Shown piece by piece: positions 25,139-44,904 of a stretch of DNA of 64,000 bases. The notes beneath the pieces are model-generated. The model was not told the origin of the DNA, made no database searches, and saw only the letters and a list, made by a program, of their open reading frames with translations. The stretch is from contig JAGBBP010000011.1 in the NCBI GenBank assembly GCA_017938405.1, positions 1-64,000 on the forward strand. The letters run 5' to 3'. This DNA is from Lachnospiraceae bacterium (lineage in GTDB: Bacteria > Bacillota > Clostridia > Lachnospirales > Lachnospiraceae). Within the stretch, counting starts at the first letter, position 1. The number at the start of each line of letters is the position of its first letter. A program made the position numbers and the translations under genes.

Positions 25139-25379
25139 CAAAGGAGCCGAAAAGGAGCCGAAAAGGAGCCAAAAAAGGAGCCGGAAAGTGAGCGATAAAA
25201 TGAGCGATAACGCGGAAACTTATCACCGGGATGTTTCCGAAGATACCGAAATGAAACAAGTTCAAAAACTTCAGCCACCATTTTCATGGTGGCTGACTCT
25301 ATTTCACCCTCACATAAAAGGTCGATTTTCCGACACCGCTTCGCATGAGTTCGCCGGCGGCGACCATTTTTCGCAATGA
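25139..25379 (+). pseudogene. Tandem AAGGAGCC repeats and a possible gene tail
   Basis: Four copies of an AAAGGAGCC unit (25139-25187) run into an open frame with VSDKMSDNAETYHRDVSEDTE that stops within the fic region. Lys/Glu/Pro repeats followed by SDKMSDN resemble linkers in AlbA_2/ATPase-type regulators, which suggests a decayed C-terminus. It could also be chance. A GTG at 25188 with an ideal Shine-Dalgarno gives a 63-residue frame that overlaps the fic gene antisense. Confidence 0.25.
25273..25294 (-). terminator. Terminator of the minus-strand fic gene
   Basis: AGCCACCA / TGGTGGCT around six bases, followed in the minus direction by GAAGTTTTTG. Confidence 0.7.
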
Positions 25380-26345
25380 GCCTTCGATGGAGCTGATGCT
25401 GAGGGAAGGGCATAATTCGCGGATGTCCTGCTTGGTGAATTTACCGATTTTGTTTTGTGTGGCTTTACGGACCATGTCGATGGCCGGAAGCTTTTCTTCT
25501 ACGATGGAGAACCGGTCTTCAAAGTCGTGGTAGGCGGCAAGGATGGTTCTGAGAAGATATTTGATGAACGGGAGGGAATCTTCCTTCCCCTCGTGCCAAA
25601 CGTCCTGGGACCTGTTCAGGGAATCGTAGTAAAGGTCTTTCTTCTTTGCTATCTTTGCTTCTAAAGAAATGTATTTTCCGACATAAAATTCGTTCCGGTA
25701 GAGCAGAAGCGTGGTAAGGAGTCTGCTCATGCGTCCGTTTCCGTCGTTGAACGGGTGGATGCAGAGAAAGTCGTGGATGAAGATCGGAATGGCAATGAGG
25801 GGTTCTACTTCCATATTGCCGATCACACGGTTGAATTCCTCGCAGATTTTATCCAGGGCTTCCGGTGTTTCAAAGGGAGCCGGCGGTGTAAAGAGCGTTT
25901 CCACGTGTCCGTCCGGATACTTTGCCGTAATGTAGTTCTGTGTGTTTTTGGTCCGTCCGGCCATGGGATTATTCATGTGGCTGTACATAATCTTATGGAG
26001 CTGGAGGATATAATTTTGTGAAAGAGGAATTGCGTCAAAGCTTTCGTGAATGATGTTTAGCACGTCTCTGTAGCCGGCAATCTCCTGTTCGTCGCGGTTC
26101 TTCGGCGTGGTCTTTTCTTCCACCAGTTGTCTCATACGGGTGCTGGTGGTAACGATACCTTCAATGGCATTGGATGCCTCGGTACTCTGTATTTTTGCGA
26201 TTTCTACGAGCTTTTCCAGTTCTTCCGGACGCTGCTTTAAATAGAGCTCCTGTTTGCCTGCTTCCTTATAGATGGCAGCAATGAGTCCGAGGATATCGGA
26301 ATCCCAGCTTTGTTCTTTGATTTTTGAGTAATTAAAGTCTCTCAT
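25299..26345 (-). CDS. Fic-domain protein with C-terminal winged helix
   Basis: 348 residues. The Fic core motif HPFNDGNGRMSR (near residue 196) has the catalytic His and the phosphate-binding Asn/Arg, so AMP transfer should be possible. An N-terminal inhibitory helix with STEASNAIEG (S/T-x3-E-G type) indicates a self-inhibited class II enzyme. The last 60 residues look like a winged helix (FTKQDIRELCPSLSISSIEGSLRKMVAAGELMRSG), so it may regulate its own gene through the repeats in its promoter. AAAGGAGG precedes the ATG. A second Fic gene lies divergently. Confidence 0.92.
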   Translation of the reverse strand: MRDFNYSKIKEQSWDSDILGLIAAIYKEAGKQELYLKQRPEELEKLVEIAKIQSTEASNAIEGIVTTSTRMRQLVEEKTTPKNRDEQEIAGYRDVLNIIHESFDAIPLSQNYILQLHKIMYSHMNNPMAGRTKNTQNYITAKYPDGHVETLFTPPAPFETPEALDKICEEFNRVIGNMEVEPLIAIPIFIHDFLCIHPFNDGNGRMSRLLTTLLLYRNEFYVGKYISLEAKIAKKKDLYYDSLNRSQDVWHEGKEDSLPFIKYLLRTILAAYHDFEDRFSIVEEKLPAIDMVRKATQNKIGKFTKQDIRELCPSLSISSIEGSLRKMVAAGELMRSGVGKSTFYVRVK

Positions 26346-26701: not shown

Positions 26702-27841
26702 ATGAATCGAGCAGGAAGCTATGTAGATAACTTAACAGGAGAGTCTGCGTATCAATCGTTTAAGCCGAGTCCATTACCTCCGATGCCGGAGCTTACAATG
26801 GACGAAGAAACGGTACGGCTCATAATAGATGCAAACAATCAGTTGGCAAAGCTTGATACTGCATCACAGCTGATTGCCAATGCAGATTTGTTTATATCGA
26901 TGTATGTCAGAAAGGAAGCCTTGATTTCTTCTCAAATTGAAGGAACACAGTGTACTCTTGACGATGTACTTGATCCGGAGGTGGATACGAATGCAAATCT
27001 GGATGTATCGGATGTTATTAATTATGTAAAAGCAACGCAGTACGCACTGATGCGTTTGGAGAAGTTCCCGCTGTGTTGCAGATTCATCCGGGAAGTACAT
27101 GAGGTATTGATGGAAGGCGTTCGTGGAGAGGATAAAACGCCGGGAGAATTCAGACGTTCTCAAAATTGGATAGGGCCGGCAAACTGCTCATTGAAAGAGG
27201 CCAGATATATTCCGCCGAATGTAGAGGATATGCAGGCTGCTATGTCGGATTTGGAAAAGTATATGAATGAAAGTGTGGAGCATGACCCGTTGGTTCGGGT
27301 GGCTCTGATTCACTATCAATTTGAAACTATCCATCCGTTTTTAGACGGAAACGGAAGAATCGGGAGGCTGCTGATATTGCTTTATCTGATGGAGCAGAGG
27401 GTGCTTACGAAGCCGGTAATATATATATCCTATTTCCTGAAAAAGAACCAGGTGGAGTACTACGACCGAATCAGTGAGGTCAGAAGAAGCGGCAATTTTG
27501 AACAATGGATTAGATTCTTTTTGGAAGCGGTAAGTAAAGCAGCTGCAGATTCTTTGGAATCCATCAACAAGCTTTCGCATTTACATGACGTAAACGTAGA
27601 AAAGCTTCCGAAAACGACGCGGAGCAAGGACAACCTACGTGCGGTGTTTGATTATATCGAGCAGTATCCGATTATTGATATTAAGAAAACAGCAAAAGAA
27701 CTGGAGATTAGTTACAATACAGTAGCTACAGCCGTAAAGAAGCTTGTGGAGCTGGGGATATTGAAGGAAACAACCAATGCTGCGCGAAACCGAGTGTTTG
27801 CCTATGAGGAGTATTTGGAGATACTGAGAAAGGATACGTAG
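26702..27841 (+). CDS. Fic-domain protein with DNA-binding C-terminus
   Basis: 379 residues. The order is Fic N-terminal domain with inhibitory motif ISSQIEGT (about 75-82), Fic core HPFLDGNGRIGR (about 218-229), then a C-terminal winged helix (about 310-375: DIKKTAKELEISYNTVATAVKKLVELGIL). The active-site loop is intact, and self-inhibition by the helix is expected. The DNA-binding end and the repeated operator in its promoter argue for autoregulation. GGGG stands 8 nt before the ATG. It is a different subgroup from the minus-strand fic gene. Confidence 0.92.
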   Translation: MNRAGSYVDNLTGESAYQSFKPSPLPPMPELTMDEETVRLIIDANNQLAKLDTASQLIANADLFISMYVRKEALISSQIEGTQCTLDDVLDPEVDTNANLDVSDVINYVKATQYALMRLEKFPLCCRFIREVHEVLMEGVRGEDKTPGEFRRSQNWIGPANCSLKEARYIPPNVEDMQAAMSDLEKYMNESVEHDPLVRVALIHYQFETIHPFLDGNGRIGRLLILLYLMEQRVLTKPVIYISYFLKKNQVEYYDRISEVRRSGNFEQWIRFFLEAVSKAAADSLESINKLSHLHDVNVEKLPKTTRSKDNLRAVFDYIEQYPIIDIKKTAKELEISYNTVATAVKKLVELGILKETTNAARNRVFAYEEYLEILRKDT

Positions 27842-27860: not shown

Positions 27861-27884
27861 CATTGATTTTACTACATTTTGTTG

Positions 27885-28334
27885 ATGCGCAATACCGATG
27901 CGCCTGTGGGCACGGAAGAACTGGCACACATGGAGATTGTATCCGCCATCATCCATCAGTTGACCAAAGATTTGACACCGGAAGAAATTGCAGCATCCGG
28001 GTTTGACAAGTATTATGTGGACCATACCTTGGGACTTTGGCCGCAGGCAGCGGGCGGGGTACCGTTTACCTCCACCTTCTTCCAGTCCAAGGGGGATCCG
28101 ATTACGGACCTCACCGAGGATATGGCAGCGGAGCAGAAAGCACGTACCACCTATGATAACATCCTTCGTCTGGTACACGACCACGATGTATGCGATCCGA
28201 TTCGCTATTTGCGTGAGCGTGAAATCGTGCACTTTCAGCGGTTTGGTGAGAGTCTTCGTATCGTGCAGGATAATCTGGATTCCAAGAACTTCTATGCCAT
28301 CAATCCGGCATTTTTGGCGGATAAGGCGAGATAA
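27885..28334 (+). pseudogene. 5'-truncated cotJC copy (second copy)
   Basis: After a 29-bp non-cotJC lead, the frame runs from GTEELAHMEI to the natural cotJC end NPAFLADKAR, 137 residues that match the intact gene almost perfectly in protein. Many synonymous DNA changes are present. The first 60 residues, including the first metal-binding Glu, are missing, and no ribosome site precedes it. It must be inactive or nearly so. The synonymous divergence means it came from a separately evolving cotJC, not a recent local copy. Confidence 0.85.
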
Positions 28335-28397: not shown

Positions 28398-29699
28398 TTA
28401 TAAGATATCATTCTTAATCAAATCATCATAAGTCTCTCTCTTGACGATAAGTTTTTTTTCGCTCCCTCTGACTGCGACAATAGGTGGGCGAGGAATGCGG
28501 TTATAGTTGCTTGCCATGGAGTAATTATATGCTCCGGTGGAAAGTACGGCGAGTGTATCGCCGACCTTGATCTCGGGCATCATAATGTTTTCCTGTATCA
28601 GGTCTCCCGATTCACAGCATTTGCCTGCGATAGTAATGGGAGCAACCAATTCTGCGGAGGCATTGTTAGCGACCACAGCGGAGTACTTGGAACCGTATAG
28701 GATGTATCTCGGATTGTCACTCATACCGCCGTCAACGGATACATAGGTTCTGATATTTTCAATCTTCTTGATACAACCGACAGTATAAAGGGTAATGCCG
28801 GCAGTAGCAACGATAGAACGTCCGGGTTCAAAGACCAAAAACGGGAGATCTATGTTTCTTTGCTTTGCAATGTCTTTTACTGTTTCAGCGACTTTCTTAA
28901 TATATTCAGTCGGTGGTAACGGATCGTCCTCAGCTACGTATTTAATACCGAAACCGCCCCCAAGATTCAATATTTTAATTTTTAGGGAAAGGCTTTCATA
29001 CAAATCGGCGATAAAATTAATCATGACTTTTGCCGCTTCGCAGAAGGGATCGACATCAAAAATCTGTGAACCGATGTGACAATGAACACCGTCAATTCTG
29101 ATATTGGTAAGTGTGGAAGCGTAGCGGTGAATTTGTGTGGCTTCACCGTTTTCTAAAGCGAAACCGAACTTAGAGTCGATTTGGCCGGTTTTAACGAAAT
29201 CATGGGTGTGCGCATCAATGCCTGGCTTGATTCGAAACAGTACATTTTGAACAATGCCTTTTGCTCCGGCAATTTCGTTAATCAAATCCAATTCAAACCG
29301 ATTATCAACCACCATGTGTCCTACACCATAGGTGATGGCAAGTTCGATTTCGTCAAGGGTCTTATTATTGCCGTGGAAGAATACTTTTTCCATCGGAAAG
29401 CCTGCTTTATATAGGGTATAAAGCTCACCACCGGAAACCACATCGGCACCGAGCCCTTCTTCTGCGGTAATGCGCGCAGTGTGCATTGTACACAGAGCCT
29501 TGCTAGCAAAGAGTACAAGTCCGTTGCCATCAAAGTATGTTTCGATGGCTTCTTTATATTCCCGACAATTTTTGCGTATTAAGTCTTCATCGAGAACATA
29601 AAGCGGAGTACCGTATTCACGTGCCAGGTCTACCGTATCGTGGGAGCCGATCATTAAATGATTTTTTGTATTTACTGATAAATTATCCGAATGAAACAT
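28398..29699 (-). CDS. lysA: Diaminopimelate decarboxylase
   Basis: 433 residues. This PLP enzyme of the alanine-racemase fold makes lysine from meso-DAP, the last step. Visible are the PLP Lys in VLFASKALC (near residue 50), HCHIGSQI, GGGFGI, EPGRSIV, CCESGD and the C-terminal AYNYSMASNYN. Length is usual. It is the last gene of the minus-strand glutamate synthase operon, 17 nt after the ANTAR gene. Its presence here links DAP/lysine supply with nitrogen genes; dapF and dapL close the other end of the block. Confidence 0.95.
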   Translation of the reverse strand: MFHSDNLSVNTKNHLMIGSHDTVDLAREYGTPLYVLDEDLIRKNCREYKEAIETYFDGNGLVLFASKALCTMHTARITAEEGLGADVVSGGELYTLYKAGFPMEKVFFHGNNKTLDEIELAITYGVGHMVVDNRFELDLINEIAGAKGIVQNVLFRIKPGIDAHTHDFVKTGQIDSKFGFALENGEATQIHRYASTLTNIRIDGVHCHIGSQIFDVDPFCEAAKVMINFIADLYESLSLKIKILNLGGGFGIKYVAEDDPLPPTEYIKKVAETVKDIAKQRNIDLPFLVFEPGRSIVATAGITLYTVGCIKKIENIRTYVSVDGGMSDNPRYILYGSKYSAVVANNASAELVAPITIAGKCCESGDLIQENIMMPEIKVGDTLAVLSTGAYNYSMASNYNRIPRPPIVAVRGSEKKLIVKRETYDDLIKNDIL

Positions 29700-29716: not shown

Positions 29717-30301
29717 CTATGAATATTTTTTAATGAGCTCTTCTGCGACTGCTTTTCTGGTGACGCATTGATCCATTGCCTGTTTTTCTATATAACGGTG
29801 AGCTTCCGGCTCTTCCATTTTCAATTCACGGATGAGAAGCCATTTTGCCCGGTTGACAATACGGATTTCTTCCATTTTTTCTTCAATGGAAAGAGTTTTC
29901 TTTTCTGTCTTTCGAAGTCTTTCTCGGGCACTGGCCATCCAACCGAGTGCAGTGGTCAAGATAGGTTTTGCGGTTGGCTTGGAAAGTGTAAATACACCAT
30001 GCTCCGCAACTTTATCATGAATGTCGGCGTGGAGTTCCGTACGTACTAGAAGTAGAACAACCGTATCTCCGGAGCAGCACGTGTCAATAGCAAATCGTGT
30101 ACCGACACCGTCGGGAAGAGGCGAGTTGATGATGACATAATCAAAATCACGTTCGCCCAATGCTCGCTTCGCTGCACTGATATTAGATACAAATTGCGTG
30201 GGTGAATAGTTGGATTCAAGGAGCAGAGTTGATAAGACGCTATTAAAATTGTCTGATGCCGAAATAATCAGAACACTGTAGGTTCTTTCTTTCAGACTCA
30301 T
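29717..30301 (-). CDS. ANTAR-domain antitermination regulator with pseudo-receiver
   Basis: 194 residues from the ATG at 30301 (AAGGAGGGAG upstream). Residues 7-120 form a receiver-like domain. The N-terminal acidic pair is replaced by ISASD and the phosphoacceptor Asp by Asn59 (YVIINSPLPDG); the KP pair (108-109) remains. A short coiled linker leads to an ANTAR RNA-binding domain (about 136-191: RIVNRAKWLLI, EAHRYIEKQAM, VAEELI). ANTAR proteins such as AmiR, NasR and EutV bind hexaloop hairpins and prevent termination. Lack of the Asp implies control by a partner or ligand, not phosphorylation. It sits next to glnA in an operon whose leader has such a hairpin. Confidence 0.9.
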   Translation of the reverse strand: MSLKERTYSVLIISASDNFNSVLSTLLLESNYSPTQFVSNISAAKRALGERDFDYVIINSPLPDGVGTRFAIDTCCSGDTVVLLLVRTELHADIHDKVAEHGVFTLSKPTAKPILTTALGWMASARERLRKTEKKTLSIEEKMEEIRIVNRAKWLLIRELKMEEPEAHRYIEKQAMDQCVTRKAVAEELIKKYS

Positions 30302-30336
30302 GTTTGCTCCCTCCTTTTTGGGTGGTTTCATTTACG

Positions 30337-31548
30337 TTATTTACTGCAATAAATATCTAAAATTGAAGTCGGTATGTGAGCACGGATAAAATCGCTGGCA
30401 GTTGCAATCGCACAGGCAGAGCTCAAATTATTCGGCAATGTTTTATAATTTGCCAATGTTTTAGAATCTGCCTTGTATAGGTTAATGTCTGCCGCCTCCG
30501 GCATTGTCAGTTTATTTTCGATACCATAGAGACCCGCATAAATCATCAGTGCAAATGCAAGATACGGATTGGCTGCCGGGTCAGGAGAACGGAGCTCTGC
30601 TCGGCGGTATTCACCCACTGCTGCGGGGATTCTTACGAGCTGCGAACGGTTTTCACTTGACCAAGAGATATATTTCGGAGCTTTATCTACGCCAAATCGT
30701 TTATAGGACTCTTCGGTAGGATTTAAAAACGCAGTCATTTCCTTCACCTTATTAAGAATACCTGCGATCATGTGATAAAGCTGGTCGGAACCATCGTCTG
30801 CTTTTACAGATATATTGATATGAAAACCGTTTCCAGGTTTTCCGTCAAGAGGCTTCGGACTGAAATCCACATAAATACCGTTACGGCGGCAGACGGTTTT
30901 AACAACTGTTTGAAACGTCAGAGTATTGTCTGCGGCCGAAAGGGGGTCGGAATAACGGAAGTCGATTTCATTCTGGCCGGGACCTTCCTCGTGATGAGAA
31001 CTCTCAGGACGGATTCCCATCTGTTCCAGAGTCAGGCATATTTCACGGCGGATGTTTTCACCTCTGTCTTCCGGAGCAATATCCATATAACCGGCTTCGT
31101 CATAAGGTTTTTTTGTCGGATTGCTCTTTTCATCAAGCTCAAACAGATAAAATTCCTGCTCGGCACCGAATGCAAAAGTGTAGCCTGCTTGCTTGGCATC
31201 TTTGACAGCTTGTCTTAGTAGATTGCGTGTATCACATTCAAACGGTGTTCCGTCGGGATAGGAAATACTGGAGAACATACGGACAACTTTACCGTGTTCG
31301 GGTCTCCATGGAAGTAATGTCAATGTTTCAGGATCCGGATGGAGCAGAAGGTCGGAATGAGTTTCGTCACCAAAGCCAGCGATTGCGGAAGCATCAAAAG
31401 CAATTCCGTATTCAAAAGCACGAGGCAATTCATCCGGCATAATGGATATATTCTTCTGTTTACCAAACACATCACAAAAAGCAAGACGAATAAATTTTAC
31501 ATCGTCTTCTTGGACATACTGCATTACCTCTTCCTTTGAATACTTCAT
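30337..31548 (-). CDS. glnA: Glutamine synthetase type I (short form)
   Basis: 403 residues, about 40 shorter than usual GSI-alpha. It makes glutamine from glutamate, ammonia and ATP. Visible are FGAEQEFYLF, EGPGQNEIDFRY, GNGFHINIS, NPTEESYKRF, ENRSQLVRIP and RSPDPAANPYLAFA. The adenylylation Tyr loop is not evident, as in Gram-positive enzymes. It lies between the gltB3 gene and the ANTAR gene, 20 nt and 5 nt away by stop/start order, so it is one operon. A second synthetase (glnN) lies in the same block. Confidence 0.93.
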   Translation of the reverse strand: MKYSKEEVMQYVQEDDVKFIRLAFCDVFGKQKNISIMPDELPRAFEYGIAFDASAIAGFGDETHSDLLLHPDPETLTLLPWRPEHGKVVRMFSSISYPDGTPFECDTRNLLRQAVKDAKQAGYTFAFGAEQEFYLFELDEKSNPTKKPYDEAGYMDIAPEDRGENIRREICLTLEQMGIRPESSHHEEGPGQNEIDFRYSDPLSAADNTLTFQTVVKTVCRRNGIYVDFSPKPLDGKPGNGFHINISVKADDGSDQLYHMIAGILNKVKEMTAFLNPTEESYKRFGVDKAPKYISWSSENRSQLVRIPAAVGEYRRAELRSPDPAANPYLAFALMIYAGLYGIENKLTMPEAADINLYKADSKTLANYKTLPNNLSSACAIATASDFIRAHIPTSILDIYCSK

Positions 31549-31568: not shown

Positions 31569-32288
31569 TTAATTTGCTACATACATTTGTTTGTATGGGT
31601 TTTGACTGTTTGGTGTAACAACAGTGAAAGGTGAGTTTAGTATCTCACTCTTCTCGTAACCGAATAACTTGCAATATTCGGCAACATATGGTTCTAATTC
31701 CTCAAAGTCCGTATCGGTAGCTTCTCTTGCGGTAACCTGGCCCGGAAAAGAGATGTCTTTGCAGTTCCCGCGTAAGAACATCTTACCGCCATGCATTCCG
31801 GTACAAGGGAAATTGCCTACGATACGTTTTCCGTTGGCTCCAAGACCGAGAACAACGATTACACCGCCTGCCTGATATTCGCCGAGAAAGCTACCGGCAA
31901 TACCTCCGATCACCATAACCGGGATTTTATCCTTGTACGCTTTCATGTGAATACCGGCCCGATAGCCTGCATTGTGTTTGATGAATATTTTACCGCCGCG
32001 CATTGCATAGCCGGCCGCATCACCGATATTACCATGAATGATAATTTCACCTTCATTCATGGTGTCACCGACAGCATCCTGTGCGTTTGCGTTTACCGTG
32101 ATAGTAGCTCCGTTCAAATAGGCACCGAGGGCGTTTCCGGGAATGCCTTCAATTGTGATGTTCTTATTTGACATACCTGCAGCTATGAAACGTTGCCCGC
32201 AAGATTCTGTGAGTGTGCAATCGTCCTCTGCATTGCGGAGAGTGTCATTCAGTGTCTTGTAATCAAGCTCTTTTGCGTTAATATTCAT
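31569..32288 (-). CDS. Glutamate synthase GXGXG subunit
   Basis: 239 residues of right-handed beta-helix with the G-rich repeats NEGEIIIHGNIGDAAGYAMRG and LGEYQAGGVIVVLG that close the large subunit of ordinary GltB. Here it is a separate protein, as in archaeal-type enzymes. It is needed to hold the amidotransferase and synthase domains together. Five nt from the flavoprotein gene. Confidence 0.88.
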   Translation of the reverse strand: MNINAKELDYKTLNDTLRNAEDDCTLTESCGQRFIAAGMSNKNITIEGIPGNALGAYLNGATITVNANAQDAVGDTMNEGEIIIHGNIGDAAGYAMRGGKIFIKHNAGYRAGIHMKAYKDKIPVMVIGGIAGSFLGEYQAGGVIVVLGLGANGKRIVGNFPCTGMHGGKMFLRGNCKDISFPGQVTAREATDTDFEELEPYVAEYCKLFGYEKSEILNSPFTVVTPNSQNPYKQMYVAN

Positions 32289-32293
32289 AATAA

Positions 32294-33526
32294 TTATATC
32301 ACACCTCCAAATTTTTTTCTACGGGTTTCTGGAGAAAAGGCAGCTGAAGTTGCAACTTTTTTCAGTAGTTCAAAGTTTATCGTGTCAAGAGGAATTTTTT
32401 CCCGGATTAATGAGGTGTAAATACCGGCACGTTCTGTGTCTCCAATCAGTATGAAACCGATAAGATAACCGTCGCGGACAAAGAACTGTTTTAATCTGTT
32501 TTCCTCCTTTTCTTCGAAAACCTCTCCGTTATAACTGCCGGCAGTCATAGCGTGCAGACCGAAGAAACCGATGGAGTTCATGGGAATTGCGTTATCAAAG
32601 ACTTCGTTACCACCTGCCATATTTACACCGGCGGCGTGTCCCTGCATATAGGCATTCGGAAGGAGGGCAAGAACACGTTTGGTCCCGATAGATATATCGT
32701 TGCCTTCCGTACAATCTCCGGCTGCGTAGATATCGGATAAGCTTGTTTCCATACGGTCGTTTATAAGGATTCCACGATTTACCTCACCGTTCTGTTCCTT
32801 TACGAGCTCCGTATTGGCACGGACACCGACAGCTAGCACAAGAACGTCAAAGTCCACAGAACTACCGCTTTTCATTATGGCGATGTTGTTTTCAAACCGG
32901 ATGACCGTATCACCAAGCATAAATCGAATTCCGTTGCTTTCGAGATGTTCTTGTATGATGGCGGCACAATCGGTCTCAAGAATACTCGATAGTATGTGGT
33001 CGGAAAGATCACATACAGTAATACTTGCTACGCGGTCGCGTAGTCCCTCGGCACATTTGAGTCCGATAAGACCAGCACCGACAATCAGTACCCGGGATTC
33101 TTTTGTAACAGCTGCTTCCAACGCCAATGAATCATCAAGCGTTAGGAAGGAAAACTTGTTTTTCACCGTTTCAAGTCCATCAAAGGGAGGAACAAAGGGA
33201 GAGGAACCGGTAGCAACGCATACAGAATCGTATGAAACTTCGGTTCTGTCATCAAGGATAATCTTTTGAGAAGAAGAATCAATGTGTTCTGCTTTTCTTC
33301 CATAGATTACTTCGCAGTTCATTTTATCGTAGAAATCTTCACTGCGATAATTCATGCGGTTAAGCTCCGTTTTCTTTTCAAGGTAATAGGAAATAAGAGG
33401 ACGACAATAAACAGGGTATTTCTCTTCGGATATGACGATAATCGTACTGCTTTTATCCACATTGCGAATGCCTTCAATACAACCGGCAGCGGCTACGCCG
33501 TTCCCGATAATGACATATTGTTTCAT
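32294..33526 (-). CDS. FAD/NAD(P)-dependent oxidoreductase of the glutamate synthase operon
   Basis: 410 residues, pyridine nucleotide-disulfide reductase fold. FAD motif IIGNGVAAAGCIEGI at the start, NAD(P) motif VLIVGAGLIGLKCAEG (about 145), and DIYAAGDCTEG (about 265). C-terminus similar to NADH:rubredoxin reductases. The TAATG overlap with the ferredoxin gene shows translational coupling. It probably feeds electrons from NAD(P)H to the synthase through that ferredoxin, replacing GltD. Confidence 0.85.
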   Translation of the reverse strand: MKQYVIIGNGVAAAGCIEGIRNVDKSSTIIVISEEKYPVYCRPLISYYLEKKTELNRMNYRSEDFYDKMNCEVIYGRKAEHIDSSSQKIILDDRTEVSYDSVCVATGSSPFVPPFDGLETVKNKFSFLTLDDSLALEAAVTKESRVLIVGAGLIGLKCAEGLRDRVASITVCDLSDHILSSILETDCAAIIQEHLESNGIRFMLGDTVIRFENNIAIMKSGSSVDFDVLVLAVGVRANTELVKEQNGEVNRGILINDRMETSLSDIYAAGDCTEGNDISIGTKRVLALLPNAYMQGHAAGVNMAGGNEVFDNAIPMNSIGFFGLHAMTAGSYNGEVFEEKEENRLKQFFVRDGYLIGFILIGDTERAGIYTSLIREKIPLDTINFELLKKVATSAAFSPETRRKKFGGVI

Positions 33527-33963
33527 TAAACCTCACCTCTTTCCTCATAAACGATTGCTCTGTTAGGGCATCCCTTCACACAGGCAGGCTCTCCGCAAGA
33601 ATTTTGCAGACAAAGCTCGCATTTTTGCATGATACCGCTTTCGCTTGGAGTAAGCGCACCGTAAGGACATACCAACACACAAGTCAGGCAACCGACACAT
33701 TTTTCCTTGTTTATCCAAACAACGCCGTCCTCTTTGGAGATTGCACCGGCAATACAGCTTTTTATGCAGATAGGGTCAGTGCAATGACGGCAGGAAACCG
33801 CATAAGAAATTTTCTCATTTCCCTCAATGTGGATTCTGGGATAGATAGGTTTATCTTTTAACGCTGTCGCCATATCTGGCATACCCGAGTTGGCAAAAGC
33901 ACAGTTATATTCACACAAATGACAGCCGAGACACCAGTCCTCATTTACATAGATTCGTTTCAT
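33526..33963 (-). CDS. Polyferredoxin of the glutamate synthase operon
   Basis: 145 residues from the ATG at 33963, four bases after the preceding stop. Sixteen Cys in four groups: CLGCHLCEYNC, CRHCTDPICIKSC, CVGCLTCVLVCP and CELCLQNSCGEPACVKGC. These fit four [4Fe-4S] clusters, as in HycB/NrfC-type electron carriers. An in-frame ATG at 34008 would overlap the synthase gene and is less likely. Confidence 0.88.
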   Translation of the reverse strand: MKRIYVNEDWCLGCHLCEYNCAFANSGMPDMATALKDKPIYPRIHIEGNEKISYAVSCRHCTDPICIKSCIAGAISKEDGVVWINKEKCVGCLTCVLVCPYGALTPSESGIMQKCELCLQNSCGEPACVKGCPNRAIVYEERGEV

Positions 33964-33967
33964 ATTA

Positions 33968-35473
33968 TCACTCTCCCGCATGAGAGATACCAAGGATCTC
34001 AAGTTCATTTTTTGTCATGCCGATACCGCGAAGCATCAGGCGGTTTCCGCGAAGGGCTTCTATGGAGTTGATACCCATACCGCCCATCAGTTCTTTGATT
34101 TCATGTCGCCAAGCGTTCATCAGATTGACAAGACGCTCACTGCCTATATCCGGATTCAAACGTTTTACCAGCTCCGGACGCTGTGTAGCAATCCCCCAGT
34201 TACATTTACCGCTCTGACAGGTGCGGCAAAGATGACAACCGAGAGCAAGCAAGGCTGCGGTTGCAATATAGCAGGCATCGGCACCGAGTGCAATTGCTTT
34301 AACGACATCTGCTGCACTGCGGATACTGCCGCCTACAACGAGAGAGACATTATTTCGGATTCCTTCGTCACGAAGCCGTTGATCCACGGCAGCCAATGCG
34401 AGTTCGATCGGAATGCCGACATTATCCCGGATTCTGGTAGGGGCGGCACCGGTGCCACCGCGGAAACCGTCGATGGCAATAATATCAGCACCGCTTCTGG
34501 CAATACCGCTGGCAATGGCAGCAATATTATGAACGGCGGCAACCTTTACAATGACCGGTTTTTTATATTCGGTAGCTTCTTTCAGAGAGAAAACAAGCTG
34601 GCGAAGATCTTCAATAGAGTAAATATCGTGATGAGGTGCAGGCGAGATTGCATCCGAGCCTTCCGGAATCATTCGGGTACGGGAAACATCCCCGACAATC
34701 TTAGCACCCGGCAGATGACCGCCGATACCCGGTTTTGCACCTTGTCCCATCTTGATTTCAATCGCTGCGCCGGCTTTGAGATAGTCTTCATGGACTCCGA
34801 AACGACCGCTTGCCACTTGGACAACGGTGTTTTCGCCGTAACAGTAGAAGTCTTCGTGCAGACCACCTTCACCGGTGTTGTAGAGAATTCCGAGTTCGGT
34901 AGCGGCACGGGCAAGAGAAGCATGTGCGTTATAACTGATGGAACCGTAGCTCATTGCCGAGAACATGACGGGCATGGAAAGTTCAATTTGCGGGGGCAGT
35001 TCACATTTTAATTTACCGTGCTCATTTCGTTGTATTTTTTCGGGTCTTTTGCCGAGGAACACACGGGTTTCCATTGGCTCACGGAGCGGGTCGATGGGTG
35101 GATTTGTTACCTGCGAGGCGTTAATCAGAATCTTGTCCCAGTACACCGGCAGGGGATTGGGGGTACCCATAGAGGATAGAAGAACACCGCCACTGTTTGC
35201 TTGTTTATATATTTCCTTAATCGTGTTGTTTGACCAGTTTGCATTCTCACGGAGAGTACAGTCGCTTTTTACGATTTTGAGTGCTCTGGTCGGACAAAGA
35301 GAGACACAACGCTGACAGTTGACACATTTGGTCTCGTCACTTACCATAATGCCCTTTTCGGTATGAAAGGTATGCACATCGTTTGCACATTGTCGTTCAC
35401 ATACGCGGCAAGTAATACAGCGATTTTCATTACGGACAACTTCAAATTCGGGATATATAAATTCTACGCTCAT
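33968..35473 (-). CDS. Glutamate synthase FMN subunit with N-terminal ferredoxin domain
   Basis: 501 residues. Two [4Fe-4S] motifs (CITCRVCERQC and CVNCQRCVSLCP) open the protein. The FMN-binding TIM barrel follows (SAMSYGSISYNAH, GAKPGIGGHLPG, IDGFRGGTGAAPT) with the cluster ligands CHLCRTCQSGKC near residue 410. It reduces the 2-iminoglutarate intermediate to glutamate. Its start overlaps the amidotransferase stop by 4 nt. Archaeal-type split enzyme. Confidence 0.93.
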   Translation of the reverse strand: MSVEFIYPEFEVVRNENRCITCRVCERQCANDVHTFHTEKGIMVSDETKCVNCQRCVSLCPTRALKIVKSDCTLRENANWSNNTIKEIYKQANSGGVLLSSMGTPNPLPVYWDKILINASQVTNPPIDPLREPMETRVFLGKRPEKIQRNEHGKLKCELPPQIELSMPVMFSAMSYGSISYNAHASLARAATELGILYNTGEGGLHEDFYCYGENTVVQVASGRFGVHEDYLKAGAAIEIKMGQGAKPGIGGHLPGAKIVGDVSRTRMIPEGSDAISPAPHHDIYSIEDLRQLVFSLKEATEYKKPVIVKVAAVHNIAAIASGIARSGADIIAIDGFRGGTGAAPTRIRDNVGIPIELALAAVDQRLRDEGIRNNVSLVVGGSIRSAADVVKAIALGADACYIATAALLALGCHLCRTCQSGKCNWGIATQRPELVKRLNPDIGSERLVNLMNAWRHEIKELMGGMGINSIEALRGNRLMLRGIGMTKNELEILGISHAGE

Positions 35474-36567
35474 TCGTATGCACCATCCTTTACTTTTACA
35501 ATTACCGGCTCTCCGCCTGCAGGAGCCCAGATGTTTTCCGCATTCGGTTCCATCGTGCGAATCGCCGCTTCTTCACTGGCGATAAATACTTTATCGTCCT
35601 TCTCACCGACTACCATAGAACGAAGTTTCAGTCGATCGTTCAGCGCCATGAGACCACCGTTAAAGCCAAGTACAATGGAAAAAGGACCGGTGATAAGTAA
35701 ACTTGGGAAAAGTGTACGCAAATAGATATGTTTGTTTTTATCTTCCAAATCGGTTTTTCCTTCGATAGTACTCCAGAACGGTGCTGCGATGACACTGGCT
35801 GCTTCACTGAGACTCAGTCCCTGTACGCGGATTAAATAGTCCATAATATAAGTGATAACTTCTGTATCGGTCTGTAGCGTACATTTGTAACCGAACATTT
35901 CGATAAAACGGCGGTTTGCATCATAAGAAGAGATTTCTCCGTTATGTACAATAGACCAATCCAGCAAAGTGAAGGGATGTGCTCCTCCCCACCAGCCGGG
36001 AGTGTTGGTAGGATAACGCCCGTGGGCTGTCCAGGAGTAACCCTCATATTCTTCTAATTTATAAAAAACACCGACATCTTCAGGAAATCCGACAGCCTTG
36101 AATGTTCCCATGTTTTTACCGCTGGAAAAGACATAAGCACCTTTCATTTCAATGTTGATTTTCATTACAGTGCGGGCAACAAATTCTTTTTCGTCCAATT
36201 GCATAGAAGCCAGCATAGATTTTAAAGGACTTACGAAATATCTCCAGATAATAGGTTCATCGGTAATTGTCGGGATTTTACGGGTCGGTATGATTTCCGA
36301 TTTTACGATTTCAAAGTGCTCTTTTAAAAAAACTTCACATTCTTTCCGGGTGGAGCGGGTATCAAAGAACATATGCAATGCATAAAATTCTTTGTATTCG
36401 GGATAGATGCCGTAACCGGCAAAACCGCCACCAAGTCCGTTGGAACGGTCATGCATCGGCTTCATGGCATTGGTAATCATATCGCCGGACATTCTGTTGC
36501 ATTCTTTAGAAATAACAGCAGCGATTGCACATCCGGAGGGGATACGCACTTGGCCTTCTACTTTCAT
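35470..36567 (-). CDS. Glutamate synthase glutamine amidotransferase subunit
   Basis: 365 residues, class II glutaminase. The catalytic Cys is Cys13 in PSGCAIAAVISK; a 12-residue leader must be removed to expose it, as in ordinary GltB. NGLGGGFAGYGIYP, WTAHGRYPTNTPGWWGGAHPF and VHNGEISSY are further family marks. First gene of the minus-strand operon that ends with lysA. It has its own promoter and hexaloop leader. Confidence 0.92.
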   Translation of the reverse strand: MKVEGQVRIPSGCAIAAVISKECNRMSGDMITNAMKPMHDRSNGLGGGFAGYGIYPEYKEFYALHMFFDTRSTRKECEVFLKEHFEIVKSEIIPTRKIPTITDEPIIWRYFVSPLKSMLASMQLDEKEFVARTVMKINIEMKGAYVFSSGKNMGTFKAVGFPEDVGVFYKLEEYEGYSWTAHGRYPTNTPGWWGGAHPFTLLDWSIVHNGEISSYDANRRFIEMFGYKCTLQTDTEVITYIMDYLIRVQGLSLSEAASVIAAPFWSTIEGKTDLEDKNKHIYLRTLFPSLLITGPFSIVLGFNGGLMALNDRLKLRSMVVGEKDDKVFIASEEAAIRTMEPNAENIWAPAGGEPVIVKVKDGAYE

Positions 36568-36610: not shown

Positions 36611-36712
36611 AAAAAGAAAAGGCGTTCATCTCAATGTAGAAGCATCTCTACACTGAAATGAACGCCCTTGCTCATTTGCCAGCATTGTACTCTTTTTCTT
36701 GTGGATTGTCAA
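36611..36712 (-). promoter_or_regulatory. Promoter and hexaloop/terminator leader of the gltB1-lysA operon
   Basis: On the minus strand TTGACA (36712-36707), 17 nt, TACAAT (36689-36684). A hairpin ATGAGC-[AAGGGC]-GTTCAT (36675-36658) begins about two bases after the expected start of transcription. Its last bases are also the start of a 20-bp terminator stem (36666-36621) followed by T-rich sequence. Only one hairpin can form at a time. Confidence 0.85.
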
Positions 36713-36801: not shown

Positions 36802-36900
36802 TTGACAATTCATTTTTGTGGGTGTACAATGCGGGACAGAAAGGCAAAGGCGTCTTTAGTGGTTTTCGTATCCCAACCACTAGAGATGCCTTTGTTTTTT
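36802..36900 (+). promoter_or_regulatory. Promoter and hexaloop/terminator leader of gdhA
   Basis: TTGACA (36802-36807), 17 nt, TACAAT (36825-36830). AAAGGC-[AAAGGC]-GTCTTT (36840-36857) forms a hexaloop hairpin with A at loop position 1 and G at 4. The loop plus 3' arm double as the base of a terminator (36845-36894) followed by TTTTTT. A clean antitermination design. Confidence 0.88.
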
Positions 36901-36929: not shown

Positions 36930-38270
<1,341 letters not shown>

Positions 38271-38297: not shown

Positions 38298-38350
38298 AAA
38301 GGCAAAGGCGTCTTTAATGTTTCCCTCATTAAAGATGCCTTTCTCTATTT
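38298..38350 (+). promoter_or_regulatory. Intercistronic hexaloop/terminator before glnN
   Basis: The same 18-nt AAAGGC-[AAAGGC]-GTCTTT (38298-38315) as before gdhA, overlapping a terminator stem (38304-38342) with a weaker T-run. No promoter is seen between gdhA and glnN, so this would control read-through from gdhA. Confidence 0.8.
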
Positions 38351-38381: not shown

Positions 38382-40478
38382 ATGGAAACTGTAACGAATT
38401 ATTTTGGGAACATGGTCTTCGATGACAGAGTAATGAAAGCTACACTGTCTGCAAAAGTGTATGCCTCGCTTAAGAAGACGATTGATGAAGGGACGGAGTT
38501 GGACATCAGTGTGGCCAATGCTGTTGCAAACGCAATGAAGGATTGGGCAATATCCAAGGGGGCTACTCATTATACACATTGGTTCCAACCGCTTACCGGT
38601 ATTACCGCAGAAAAGCATGACAGCTTTATTACTCCGTCTCCGGATGGCGGTGTGATTATGGAATTTTCAGGAAAGGAATTGATTAAGGGTGAGCCGGATG
38701 CGTCTTCTTTCCCGTCCGGTGGATTGAGAGCGACGTTTGAGGCAAGAGGCTATACCGCGTGGGATCCGACCTCGTACGCATTTATTAAGGGAACCACCCT
38801 TTGTATTCCGACGGCGTTCTGTTCTTATGGCGGAGAAGCATTAGATAAGAAGACACCACTTCTTCGTTCTATGGAAGCACTGAACAAGCAAGCGCTTCGT
38901 ATCTTGCGATTGTTCGGGAACGATACGGTAAAGTGTGTTCGTACATCCGTTGGACCGGAGCAGGAATATTTCCTTGTAGATGCGGAGATGTATGAGAAGC
39001 GTCGTGACCTGCGCTTTACCGGTCGTACCTTATTTGGCGCAAGACCTCCGAAGGGGCAGGAAATGGATGACCATTACTTCGGTGTGATCAAGCCTAGAGT
39101 TCAGGCATATATGAAAGAACTTAACGACGAACTGTGGAAGCTTGGTATTTTGGCCAAGACCGAACATAATGAAGTAGCCCCGGCGCAGCATGAGCTGGCA
39201 CCTATCTATACTACGACAAACATTGCAACAGATCATAACCAGCTGACAATGGAGATTATGCAAAAGGTTGCTGCAAAGCATGGCCTGGTTTGTTTACTCC
39301 ATGAAAAGCCTTTCGCCGGGGTGAATGGTAGTGGCAAGCACAATAACTGGTCCATGGCTACAGATGCAGGGGTAAACCTTCTTTCTCCGGGAGAAACCCC
39401 GTACGAGAATGCGCAATTCCTTTTGTTCCTTTGTGCTGTGATAAAGGCAGTGGATGATTATCAGGATTTGCTTCGTATTTCGGTTGCCACTGCCGGAAAC
39501 GATCATCGTCTTGGAGCAAACGAAGCACCGCCTGCGGTTGTTTCTATTTTCCTTGGTGATGAATTAAATGCAGTGTTGGAAGCAATTGAAACCGGAACCC
39601 CGTACAGCGGTACCGAAAAGAAACAGATGAAGTTGGGCGTTGACGTGCTTCCGAAGTTTAACCGCGATACCACGGATCGTAACCGTACTTCGCCGTTTGC
39701 GTTTACCGGTAACAAGTTCGAATTCCGTATGCTTGGTTCCTCCAACAGTATTGCTTGCGCGAACATCATGTTAAACAGTGCGGTGGCAGAGAGTTTAAAG
39801 ATTTATGCCGATCGGTTGGAACAGACAGAGGACTTTGAGACGGCGCTCCACCAGATGATTCGAAAGACTATCAAGGACCACAAAAATATTATTTTTAACG
39901 GCAATGGGTATGATGATTCATGGATTCGAGAGGCAACAGAGAAAAGAGGCTTACTTAACTATCGTACGACTGCAGACTGTGTACCGCACCTTCTGGATAA
40001 GAAGAATGTAGATATGTTAACCGCTCACGGTGTATTTTCGGAAGCAGAACTTAAGTCGCGTTATGAAATCACGTTGGAGAACTACTGTAAGACCGTTGTA
40101 ATTGAAGCGAACACCATGGTGGATATGGCGAAGACCGAGATTGCACCGGCAGTAGAGGCTTACGTGGCAGACGTGGCAAAAGCTGTGGCTGCAAAGAAGG
40201 CAGTGGATGCAGCACTTCCGTGTACTTACGAGATGGGTCTTGTGAAGAAGCTTTCAATGTTGTGCGATCGGATTGCGATAAAAACAGAGGAACTGGAGAC
40301 AATATTAAAAGAAATTCAGGAAACGGAGGATATCGGTACGGAAGCAAATGCAATTCGCGATACACTTCTTGGTAAGATGTATGAGTTACGCCTTGCGTGT
40401 GATGAGGCAGAAACCGTTACGGCAAAGAGCTATTGGCCGTTCCCTACCTATGGTGACCTGCTTTTCGGCGTAAGATAA
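38382..40478 (+). CDS. glnN: Glutamine synthetase type III
   Basis: 698 residues, the size of GSIII (large dodecamer). Family marks are [52 protein letters not shown] and [26 protein letters not shown] is common in gut Clostridia and Bacteroides and is usually the ammonia-limited enzyme. AAAAGGAGG precedes the ATG. It shares the gdhA transcript through an attenuator. Confidence 0.96.
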
Positions 40479-40509
40479 GGATAAAATGAACAGGAAAGGA
40501 TGATGTGTT

Positions 40510-42225
40510 ATGACGTACAGCGCAGTTAATACAATTTGGGTACTGATCGGTGCCGCACTTGTATTCTTTATGCAGGCCGGATTTTCCATGTGTGAAGCCG
40601 GATTTACCAGAGCGAAGAATACCGGTAACATTTTGATGAAAAACCTGATGGACTTTTGTATCGGAACACCGGCCTTCTGGTTGGTCGGTTTCGGGCTCAT
40701 GTTTGGCTCCGGAACGGGTCTGTTTGGAAAATTCGATCCTTTCATTCGGGGAGATTACAGCCATATTTTACCGGCCGGAGTACCGCTTTGGGCCTTTGCG
40801 ATATTTCAGACTGTATTTTGTGCCACCTCAGCGACCATCGTTTCCGGTGCCATGGCGGAACGGACGAAGTTCAGTGCATATTGTATTTACTCCGCAGCAA
40901 TCTCCCTTATTATCTATCCGATTTCCGGACATTGGATTTGGGGCGGTGGCTGGTTAGCGGAACTCGGTTTTCATGATTTTGCAGGTTCTACTGCTGTTCA
41001 TATGGTTGGCGGTGTCTGCGCTTTAATCGGTGCAAAGATTTTAGGTCCGCGTATCGGTAAGTACGACAAGAACAGAAAGCCACGGGCAATCCTCGGTCAC
41101 AACCTGACCTTTGCGGCACTCGGGGTATTCATTCTTTGGTTCTGTTGGTTCGGTTTTAACGGTGCTTCTACCGTTGGTATGGATAGTGATGTACTGGTGG
41201 AACGTGCAGGCATGGTCTTTTTTAACACAAACCTTACGGCTGCTGTTGCCTGTTGTACAACTCTAATTGTGACCTGGATTCGTTATAAGAAGCCGGATGT
41301 TTCCATGACATACAATGCAGCACTTGCCGGTCTGGTAGGTATTACCGCAGGCTGTGATGCGGTAAGTCCGTTAGGCGCAGCGATTATGGGCTTGATATTC
41401 GGTGTTGTAATTGTATTTGCCGTTGAGTTTTTCGATAAGGTCGCAAAAATCGATGACCCGGTAGGTGCGATTTCCGTGCATGGTATTTGCGGTGCACTCG
41501 GTACAATTTTGACCGGATTGTTTGCAACCGGTAGTTCTACCGAAAAGGGCTTATTCTACGGTGGTGGCTTCCACTTATTTGGCGTTCAGTTGTTAGGTGT
41601 TGTTACGGTAGCAGCGTATGTTGCTGTATTAATTACCATTGTGTTTTTAGTGATTAAGCATACGATCGGACTTCGCGCTGATGCGGAGGATGAGATTGCC
41701 GGACTGGATGTTTCCGAGCATGGTTTACTCACGGCATATGCGGGATTTGCAATGCTTCCGGATACAACGACGTTAGAAGACGGAACAGATCCGATCGTTG
41801 TAACCGGTGAGGTTCCGGTGGCGGAAGCGGTTCCGGTAAAGAAAATGCCGTCCTTCGAAGAGGGTACGCCTAAGTTTACGAAGGTTGAGATTATTTGCAA
41901 GGAATCCCGACTGGAAACATTAAAGTCGGCGATGATGAGCATTGGCATTACCGGTATGACCGTATCCCATGTACTCGGTTGCGGTGTGCAGAAGGGTAAG
42001 CCGGAATACTATCGTGGTGTCCCGGTCGAAGCAACCCTTTTACCGAAGGTTCAGGTGGATATTGTAGTCAGCAAGGTTCCGGTTCGCAGTGTTATTGAAG
42101 CGGCGAAGAAAGTGCTTTACACCGGACATATCGGTGATGGTAAAATTTTTGTTTATGATGTGGAAAATGTTGTAAAGGTTCGTACCGGCGAAGAAGGTTA
42201 CGATGCCCTACAGGATGTTGAATAA
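40510..42225 (+). CDS. Ammonium transporter fused to PII regulator
   Basis: 571 residues. Residues 1-410 are an Amt channel with eleven helices (QAGFSMCEAGF, DFAGSTAVHMVGG, WFGFNGAST, ISVHGICGALGT). A 45-residue linker leads to a full PII domain (455-571). The T-loop has GKPEYYRG with Tyr at 500/501, the B-loop TGHIGDGKIFV, and the C-loop VRTGE. PII normally is a separate GlnK that plugs Amt when glutamine is high. A covalent tether would give permanent local control. Whether uridylylation occurs is unknown. It follows glnN by 31 nt. Confidence 0.95.
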   Translation: MTYSAVNTIWVLIGAALVFFMQAGFSMCEAGFTRAKNTGNILMKNLMDFCIGTPAFWLVGFGLMFGSGTGLFGKFDPFIRGDYSHILPAGVPLWAFAIFQTVFCATSATIVSGAMAERTKFSAYCIYSAAISLIIYPISGHWIWGGGWLAELGFHDFAGSTAVHMVGGVCALIGAKILGPRIGKYDKNRKPRAILGHNLTFAALGVFILWFCWFGFNGASTVGMDSDVLVERAGMVFFNTNLTAAVACCTTLIVTWIRYKKPDVSMTYNAALAGLVGITAGCDAVSPLGAAIMGLIFGVVIVFAVEFFDKVAKIDDPVGAISVHGICGALGTILTGLFATGSSTEKGLFYGGGFHLFGVQLLGVVTVAAYVAVLITIVFLVIKHTIGLRADAEDEIAGLDVSEHGLLTAYAGFAMLPDTTTLEDGTDPIVVTGEVPVAEAVPVKKMPSFEEGTPKFTKVEIICKESRLETLKSAMMSIGITGMTVSHVLGCGVQKGKPEYYRGVPVEATLLPKVQVDIVVSKVPVRSVIEAAKKVLYTGHIGDGKIFVYDVENVVKVRTGEEGYDALQDVE

Positions 42226-44036: not shown

Positions 44037-44065
44037 GAGAAAAACAAAAAAATTCATAGAGTAGT

Positions 44066-44155
44066 TGACAAATTGCCGAAAAAAGAGTAGAATCTCTTCA
44101 TGAAAAGGCAAAGACGTCTTTGAGTTTATACTCGAAGTGTCTTTGTCTTTTTTTG
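44066..44155 (+). promoter_or_regulatory. Promoter and hexaloop/terminator leader of the purC operon
   Basis: TTGACA (44066-44071), 17 nt, TAGAAT (44089-44094). Hairpin AAAGGC-[AAAGAC]-GTCTTT (44105-44122), four bases after the expected start. It overlaps a terminator (44110-44146) with a run of T. The same plan as before gdhA and gltB1. No purine riboswitch is present. Confidence 0.88.
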
Positions 44156-44190
44156 TTTAAAAGCGTTATTACAATCGGAGGTATGAAGAG

Positions 44191-44904
44191 ATGACCAAGA
44201 GAGAACAGCTTTACGAAGGAAAAGCAAAAAAGGTGTATAAGACGGATGACCCGGAACTTCTTATCGTTTCCTATAAGGATGATGCGACGGCGTTTAACGG
44301 TCTCAAGAAAGGAACCATAGTCGGTAAGGGTGTTATCAACAACCGGATGAGTAATTTGCTTATGCAGCGAATCCAAAAGGCCGGTATTCCTACTCATTTT
44401 GTGCAGGAGTTGAGTGAGCGTGATACGTTGGTTAAAAAAGTCTCTATCGTGCCTCTAGAAGTAATTATCAGAAATATTGCTGCCGGCTCCTTCTCAAAAC
44501 GGTACGGTGTCGAGGAGGGCTTCGTTTTTGAATTGCCTACCATTGAATTCTCTTATAAAAACGACGAGCTGGGTGATCCGCTTATGGATGAATATCATGC
44601 TATTGCTATGAAGTTGGCAACCAAAGAAGAGATTGAAACGATTAAAAAGTATGCATTTGGTGTCAATGAGCAGTTAAAGGCATTTTGGAAGGAGTGCGGT
44701 GTCACTTTGGTGGATTTTAAGCTGGAATTCGGTAAACTTTCGGACGGTACGATTGTACTTGCCGATGAAATCAGTCCCGACACCTGCCGCCTTTGGGACA
44801 GTACGACCGGCGAGAAACTTGACAAGGACAGATTTCGCCGTGATCTTGGCGGTGTAGAAGATGCTTATGCGGAAGTGATGAAGCGTCTCATGCAACATAT
44901 ATAA
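44191..44904 (+). CDS. purC: SAICAR synthetase
   Basis: 237 residues, normal length. It joins aspartate to CAIR in purine synthesis. Visible are LYEGKAKKVYKTDDPE, KDDATAFNG, PLEVIIRNIAAGSFSKRYG and LADEISPDTCRLWD. First gene of a long cotranscribed run (purC to dapL) with gaps mostly under 30 nt. Confidence 0.97.
   Translation: MTKREQLYEGKAKKVYKTDDPELLIVSYKDDATAFNGLKKGTIVGKGVINNRMSNLLMQRIQKAGIPTHFVQELSERDTLVKKVSIVPLEVIIRNIAAGSFSKRYGVEEGFVFELPTIEFSYKNDELGDPLMDEYHAIAMKLATKEEIETIKKYAFGVNEQLKAFWKECGVTLVDFKLEFGKLSDGTIVLADEISPDTCRLWDSTTGEKLDKDRFRRDLGGVEDAYAEVMKRLMQHI

Follow-up and report, generated by a model that had tools for sequence, protein, structure and literature searches.

A NitR-like ANTAR regulator with a pseudo-receiver and an apparent single-hexaloop nitrogen regulon in a Lachnospiraceae bacterium

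Introduction

NitR of Clostridium saccharobutylicum has been reported to induce GS/GOGAT genes by antitermination upon nitrogen limitation (Stutz 2007, doi 10.1099/mic.0.2007/005371-0, as summarised in PMC6316151). For EutV, both hexaloops of the target are needed in vivo, and deletion of P1 or a change of the linker, which is natively 5–12 nt long in the E. faecalis eut leaders, strongly reduces induction (PMC3369931). In the EutV–RNA structure the dimer contacts one hexaloop at a time, with Lys149, Glu160 and Met172 as RNA-contact residues (PMC8934654). The same study reduced the minimal ANTAR site to a single hexaloop, considered why antitermination nevertheless takes two, and deferred to later work the question of how widely single hexaloops are used in nature (PMC8934654). 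ANTAR proteins with pseudo-receivers, such as AmiR, are already known (PMC3369936). In Bacillus, GlnR and TnrA are controlled by glutamine-inhibited glutamine synthetase, and GlnR is encoded next to this enzyme (PMC9249791). Our literature search on NitR and single-hexaloop antitermination found only the review PMC6316151 and the structural paper PMC8934654.

Here we analysed a 64,000-nucleotide stretch of a Lachnospiraceae genome (assembly GCA_017938405.1, contig JAGBBP010000011.1, positions 1 to 64,000), hereafter the window, which carries an ANTAR gene within a cluster of nitrogen-assimilation genes.

Results

Regulator protein

The regulator gene (Table 1) starts at the ATG at 30301, and GGAGG precedes this codon; alternatively, translation could begin at an ATG at 30331. 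Its product comprises a pseudo-receiver (aa 4–111), a long helix (112–160) and an ANTAR domain (140–190). The first-pass annotation had described the last as complete, in agreement with the profile search (PF03861, E 2.3e-15, profile positions 4–54 of 54, 56.5 bits against a cut-off of 27.3), by which this is the only ANTAR gene in the whole genome. According to our mapping, the three RNA-contact residues of EutV correspond to K153, E164 and M176, which are present in 110 of 110 homologues, and Tyr164 of EutV corresponds to His168, as in AmiR.

Pfam Response_reg gave no match in the regulator, the locus is not among the 40 receivers of the whole genome, and no NCBIfam model matches the protein. 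The AF2 model, built on 39 aligned relatives (mean pLDDT 87, pTM 0.69), has strands at residues 8–14, 32–38, 55–59, 81–87 and 104–108. VIA-align comparison of this model gave Z 17–19 with true receivers and, for the full-length protein, Z 17.8 with RNA-bound EutV (6ww6; 190 residues, 3.6 Å), values that speak for a shared shape only and not for function. As modelled, the regulator is a receiver fold with its ANTAR domain arranged as in EutV.

Table 1. Features of the nitrogen cluster in the window.
Feature	Position	Strand	Basis
ANTAR regulator gene (NitR-like), 194 aa	29717..30301	-	ORF, Pfam, AF2, structure match
ANTAR RNA-binding domain	29732..29884	-	profile search; sole ANTAR of genome
Codon of Asn59, phosphoacceptor position, end of beta-3	30125..30127	-	alignment, AF2
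glnA (type I glutamine synthetase), directly upstream of ANTAR gene	30337..31548	-	ORF, Pfam, linkage in relatives
lysA (diaminopimelate decarboxylase), downstream of ANTAR gene	28398..29699	-	ORF, NCBIfam
Glutamate-synthase-type genes, same operon	31569..36567	-	ORF, Pfam
GATase gene (gltB)	35470..36567	-	ORF, Pfam
FMN-domain gene (gltB)	33968..35473	-	ORF, Pfam
Ferredoxin	33526..34008	-	ORF, Pfam
FAD oxidoreductase	32294..33526	-	ORF, Pfam
GXGXG	31569..32288	-	ORF, Pfam
gdhA (glutamate dehydrogenase)	36936..38270	+	ORF, Pfam
glnN (type III glutamine synthetase)	38382..40478	+	ORF, Pfam/NCBIfam
amt-PII fusion	40510..42225	+	ORF, Pfam/NCBIfam
Promoter TTGACA-17-TACAAT, gltB-glnA-ANTAR operon	36684..36712	-	sequence
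gltB-leader hexaloop hairpin AAATGAGC-AAGGGC-GTTCATTT (A1, G4), 6 nt after -10 box	36656..36677	-	scan, covariance model, RNAfold
gltB-leader intrinsic terminator, exclusive with hexaloop hairpin	36620..36667	-	RNAfold
Promoter TTGACA-17-TACAAT of gdhA	36802..36830	+	sequence
gdhA-leader hexaloop AAAGGC-AAAGGC-GTCTTT	36840..36857	+	scan, covariance model, RNAfold; overlapping terminator ends in T-run near 36899
gdhA-glnN spacer hexaloop AAAGGC-AAAGGC-GTCTTT	38298..38315	+	scan, covariance model, RNAfold
glnN-leader intrinsic terminator	38304..38342	+	sequence
Promoter TTGACA-17-TAGAAT of purC	44065..44093	+	sequence
purC-leader hexaloop AAAGGC-AAAGAC-GTCTTT and overlapping terminator, before purC (44191..44904)	44104..44121	+	scan, covariance model, RNAfold

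Gene neighborhood and linkage to glnA

The minus-strand order is gltB-GATase, gltB-FMN, ferredoxin, FAD oxidoreductase, GXGXG, glnA, ANTAR and lysA; divergently, on the plus strand, gdhA, glnN, amt-PII and asnB are followed by purC and other nucleotide and amide genes. As noted in the first-pass annotation, the regulator gene lies directly after glnA, and this placement in a GS/GOGAT cluster is of the NitR type: NitR of C. saccharobutylicum NCP262 is presumably also encoded just downstream of glnA, a position that we take to define NitR. Among relatives, glnA stands right before the ANTAR gene in every locus with Asn at position 59 (N59) whose upstream sequence is long enough to tell, at identities as low as about 30%; the six loci without glnA upstream begin at a contig end. 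Two apparent breaks in the linkage (L142, L151) were discarded as ordinary response regulators caught through their receiver.

The gene series headed by purC contains, by appearance, purC, purA, a pyrK-like gene, guaA, glmS, pyrG, purF and carAB. Beside the nitrogen cluster, two different Fic-domain proteins are encoded back to back (25299–26345, minus strand; 26702–27841, plus strand). A truncated manganese-catalase (CotJC-like) gene copy lies between a Fic gene and lysA (27879–28334, plus strand); it shares 140 of 142 residues with the full gene 5.6 kb upstream (22235–22843, plus strand) and is probably a recent segmental duplication.

Loss of the phosphorylation site

The strand sequences of the regulator are SVLIISASDN (beta-1), DYVIINSPLPDG (beta-3), VVLLLVRTE (beta-4) and VFTLSKP (beta-5). 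Ser14-Ala15 occupy the place of the acidic pair, where true receivers have Asp-Asp or Glu-Asp, Asn59 that of the phosphoacceptor and Val86 that of Thr/Ser; Lys108 is the only one of the five canonical positions that is kept. In the AF2 geometry beta-1 ends at residue 14, beta-3 spans 55–59 and beta-5 ends at Lys108. These data bear out the first-pass annotation, which had placed Asn59 (in IINSPLPDG) at the phosphoacceptor position, had found the N-terminal acidic residues absent and had suggested an alignment with EutV receivers. Canonical EutV rows in this alignment keep all five positions, whereas the regulator keeps one of them and is not of this phosphorylatable, EutV type; a receiver fold (Z 17–19) with Asn59 in place of the phosphoacceptor is of the AmiR type.

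Asn59 is present in 100 of the 110 homologues and in all 87 that reach ≥50% identity, which argues against chance or a sequencing error; these 87 mostly have S-A at the acidic pair and V or I at the Thr position as well. Judged from these alignments, Asn59 is a family trait and not peculiar to this protein.

A wider survey covered ANTAR loci of the same order and class (Clostridia), all of which were aligned and read at the five key columns. An intact DD-D-T/S-K set was present in 0 of 142 ANTARs directly behind glnA versus 6 of 23 placed elsewhere (Fisher p about 4e-6, a figure that ignores the kinship of relatives). Position 59 of the glnA-adjacent proteins is Asn in 105, Gly in 19 and Asp in 10, with Ser, Glu, Val or Ala in the rest, and the 10 Asp59-type proteins are without a complete acidic pair. 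Complete DD/ED-D-T/S-K rows belong to L202, L203, L208, L211, L216 and L223, none of them behind glnA; five of these six are EutV proteins close to EutB, so the key columns are correctly placed.

In a quick, unrooted tree the regulator falls within a mostly Asn clade of 45 rows (SH-aLRT 99). Because a second Asn group (L191, L199, L200) sits elsewhere in this tree, Asn at position 59 probably arose twice. The loci of that second group are glnA-ANTAR-PII-amt clusters whose ANTAR proteins have N59, keep Thr and Lys and lack the acidic pair, and they probably represent an independent pseudo-receiver. Another glnA-linked branch among order-level relatives (L128, L131, L133–L150), with Gly or Ser at 59 and Phe-Pro at beta-1, is even farther from a receiver; several of its leaders keep a single AAAGGC-type hexaloop.

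Single hexaloops in four leaders of the window

We scanned for A1/G4 hexaloop hairpins that share an arm with an intrinsic terminator, the 3' arm of the hairpin doubling as the terminator's 5' arm. Four sites emerged in the relevant intergenic regions of the window, with one such hairpin each before the gltB-glnA-ANTAR operon, gdhA, glnN-amt and purC, and RNAfold indicates that hexaloop and terminator are mutually exclusive in these leaders. The first-pass annotation had credited the operon with its own target leader, which indeed lies upstream of gltB at 36620–36677 on the minus strand. Beyond that annotation, the leader has a single hexaloop near the predicted transcript start, not the standard dual hairpin, and the same element precedes gdhA, glnN and purC.

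At gltB, gdhA and purC, a TTGACA-17-TANAAT promoter ends 6–10 nt before the hairpin, so that the predicted start and the first base of the hairpin coincide or lie no more than a few bases apart; given the +1 predicted from the -10 boxes, there is no room for a second hairpin ahead of the hexaloop. The glnN leader has no visible promoter adjacent to its hexaloop, and an undetected first hairpin may therefore exist there.

A covariance model built from 49 distinct hairpins of this type gave exactly four strong matches in the 2.9 Mb genome, all in the window (E 1e-5 to 8e-5; next 0.007), and four matches in each of three congeners. The fifth genomic match (C7:414717, E 0.007) has flanks without promoter or terminator and was taken as chance, and Rfam at gathering thresholds returned nothing within the window. 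We also considered whether the apical hairpin of the gltB leader hides a second hexaloop and rejected this, since its loop reads GAUGCU in the window and differs elsewhere, where A1 is mostly absent. This apex of the gltB terminator (36630–36655, minus strand) is a separate recurrent hairpin of the GUAGA..UCUAC type, also found in gltB leaders of relatives, that could persist in the antiterminated state. With regard to purC, the hexaloop attenuator in front of it (44059–44160, plus strand) suggests a possible link between purine synthesis and nitrogen status.

Hexaloops among relatives

We identified 132 hexaloop-plus-terminator sites in 55 loci of relatives, which are not independent of each other. 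A near-consensus promoter is present at 79 of these sites, and in 78 of the 79 the -10 box ends 5–11 nt before the hairpin. When promoters were chosen without reference to hairpins, a hairpin within 12 nt of the -10 box followed 81 of 108 nitrogen-gene promoters versus 5 of 284 other promoters, and these five include at least one glnA leader of this type. The loop identity at nitrogen promoters was AxxG in 81 cases versus at most 1 for any other identity. Stems of the single hairpins are usually 5–8 bp long (median 7). Across 49 distinct hairpins, 96% of cells are paired, a figure inflated by the scan, which itself required pairing; double-change cells number 65 versus 24.7 in shuffled sets, and sliding the pairing partners destroys the covariation.

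No second C[AANGNN]G hexaloop was found between the -10 box and the hairpin at any of the 79 promoter-proximal sites, which thus lack the P1 + P2 arrangement of dual-hexaloop targets. As a positive control, the same criterion recovered a textbook dual element ahead of EutB in one of the relatives (L285 at 18044; GGAGTAC-AATGAA-GTACTCT, 6 nt, GGC-AAAGAA-GCC and terminator). The strict stem setting found none near eut genes, since eut P2 stems can be 3 bp long; once stems of 3 bp closed by a C-G pair were admitted, this one appeared. Upstream A1/G4 hexaloops occur near 3 of the 132 sites (L070, L104, L105) and were rejected as P1: those of L070 and L105 are within promoter sequence, outside the transcript, and that of L104 belongs to a site called before the ANTAR gene itself and is probably spurious.

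In many gdhA and glnN leaders of relatives, two hairpin-terminator modules follow each other at a distance of about 76 nt. Distant glnA leaders (L127, L131, L140, L147) show the same type of single hexaloop close to the promoter. A dual hexaloop with terminator that looks like a classical two-hairpin element stands ahead of an ANTAR-PII-amt cluster that lacks linkage to glnA (L206 at 8292, minus strand).

Discussion

Proposed mechanism

We consider it probable that the regulator is a NitR-like antiterminator with a partner-controlled pseudo-receiver that drives readthrough of its own and three other operons through single hexaloops. The element, in which hairpin and terminator exclude each other, is conserved, and the single hexaloops are restricted to the nitrogen and purine operons around the regulator. 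The receiver fold would serve as a protein- or ligand-docking pseudo-receiver devoid of phosphorylation chemistry, a loss that can be read from the sequence. The ANTAR domains would bind one A1/G4 hexaloop near the 5' end of the nascent gltB-operon, gdhA and purC leaders, as well as that in the gdhA-glnN spacer. An ANTAR dimer might take the hexaloop as the hairpin leaves RNA polymerase; the held hairpin would block the terminator that uses the same bases, and transcription would pass on, own operon included. The long stem (median 7 bp) may replace the second, recruiting hairpin of EutV targets. The autoregulation proposed in the first-pass annotation is supported at the sequence level by the operon leader, whose ANTAR-type hexaloop is exclusive with a terminator.

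Nitrogen status would reach the pseudo-receiver probably via glutamine synthetase. Under nitrogen excess, glutamine-inhibited GlnA (or PII) would hold the regulator inactive, and under nitrogen limitation the regulator would be released as an active dimer. Readthrough under limitation is the expected sign because NitR was reported to antiterminate GS/GOGAT genes in that condition.

Alternative readings

Control by a protein partner is likely, as the first-pass annotation had proposed in naming glutamine synthetase and the PII domain of the Amt fusion, and the invariant glnA-ANTAR order makes a partner such as GlnA likely; between GlnA and PII, that part of the proposal is not separable. GlnA is the most likely partner and PII the second candidate, given the invariant linkage and the GlnR precedent, although the linkage also fits simple co-expression. 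The nitrogen signal could instead arrive via PII, either that of the Amt fusion or another one, which would bind the pseudo-receiver according to 2-oxoglutarate, ADP or ATP, with glnA merely co-transcribed. Such a route is rather doubtful: PII is present in the genome, amt-PII lies within the presumed regulon (38382–42225) and a PII/amt gene is just downstream in 8 of 23 class-level glnA-linked ANTAR loci, yet glnA linkage is constant wherever the upstream gene is visible and PII linkage is not. That a small molecule (glutamine, 2-oxoglutarate or other) binds directly in the former phosphorylation pocket seems unlikely. N59, P61, L62, D64, K108 and R46 around this pocket are strongly conserved despite the lost phosphorylation, but position 59 is occupied by G, S, E, V or A in further glnA-linked branches, so the pocket chemistry is not kept across the system, and the AmiR and NasT precedents rely on partner proteins.

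Phosphorylation is very unlikely to be the regulator's normal switch, in line with the first-pass view that a kinase does not operate it, because neither the Asp nor the acidic pair nor the Thr/Ser is left, a loss that is conserved. Modification of Asp64, in the beta3-alpha3 loop, or of Asp54 by a distant kinase is hardly more credible. Both residues are conserved (102 and 104 of 110 homologues, respectively) and the genome as a whole has many kinases; however, the acidic pair that binds Mg2+ has been lost together with the Thr/Ser, the column of Asp54 is Asp in canonical EutV receivers as well, and no kinase ATPase domain is encoded within the window. It is also quite improbable that another factor reads the hairpins as ordinary parts of attenuators or terminators while the ANTAR protein acts elsewhere. 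The target role of the hairpins is deduced from sequence features, and having only one hexaloop breaks the two-hexaloop rule; on the other side, AxxG occurs at 81 nitrogen promoters versus at most one for each other identity, as ANTAR recognition requires, and the four strong genomic sites all surround the only ANTAR gene. Since EutV needs both hexaloops in vivo, the single hexaloop may act by another route, e.g. RNA stability or sequestration.

Significance

Because EutV and NasR need two hexaloops and the four strong sites here carry one, the system looks like a natural single-hexaloop antitermination regulon. Together with about 50 relatives, the window offers a compact regulon of four long-stem sites whose transcripts contain no other hexaloop at the first terminator, so that the single-hexaloop question can be tested directly in vitro. 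In many uncultured gut Clostridia, this points to a nitrogen-control system based on an RNA-binding pseudo-receiver genetically tied to glutamine synthetase. We suggest only tentatively that ANTAR regulons with one promoter-proximal hexaloop per terminator and no phosphorylation are widespread in Clostridia, having dispensed with second hairpin and kinase and taken glutamine synthetase as the signal-giving partner.

Comparison with known systems

The regulator most resembles NitR of Clostridium saccharobutylicum, an ANTAR-family antiterminator reported to induce genes of the GS/GOGAT cycle, the role predicted here for the regulator; the likeness is one of description and gene position. The protein is thus of an already known kind, and the new part would be the single-hexaloop, promoter-proximal target, a claim that cannot be firm, as an earlier description alongside NitR (Stutz 2007) is possible. 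With EutV of Enterococcus faecalis (6WSH, 6WW6) the regulator shares the receiver, long helix and ANTAR layout, the K/E/M contact residues and targets in which an A1/G4 hexaloop is exclusive with a terminator. EutV, however, is phosphorylated at Asp54 by EutW, whereas the regulator has neither the Asp nor the acidic pair, and EutV targets have two hexaloops (P1 and P2), whereas those predicted here have one, with a longer stem, near the predicted transcript start of nitrogen-assimilation genes.

Similar to AmiR-AmiC and NasT-NasS, in which an ANTAR protein with a pseudo-receiver (AmiR) or receiver is governed by a metabolite-sensing partner, the regulator may be under partner control, and it has His at the G4-stacking position in common with AmiR. 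The partners in those systems are solute-binding-protein-like sensors, whereas the gene linked here encodes glutamine synthetase, and the AmiR and NasR leaders have reported dual hexaloops in contrast to the single ones of this regulator. The proposed logic is analogous to that of GlnR and TnrA, nitrogen regulators under glutamine synthetase. These are MerR-type DNA-binding proteins, unrelated to ANTAR, that control initiation, whereas the present regulator would act at the RNA level, possibly as an RNA-level counterpart of GS-GlnR.
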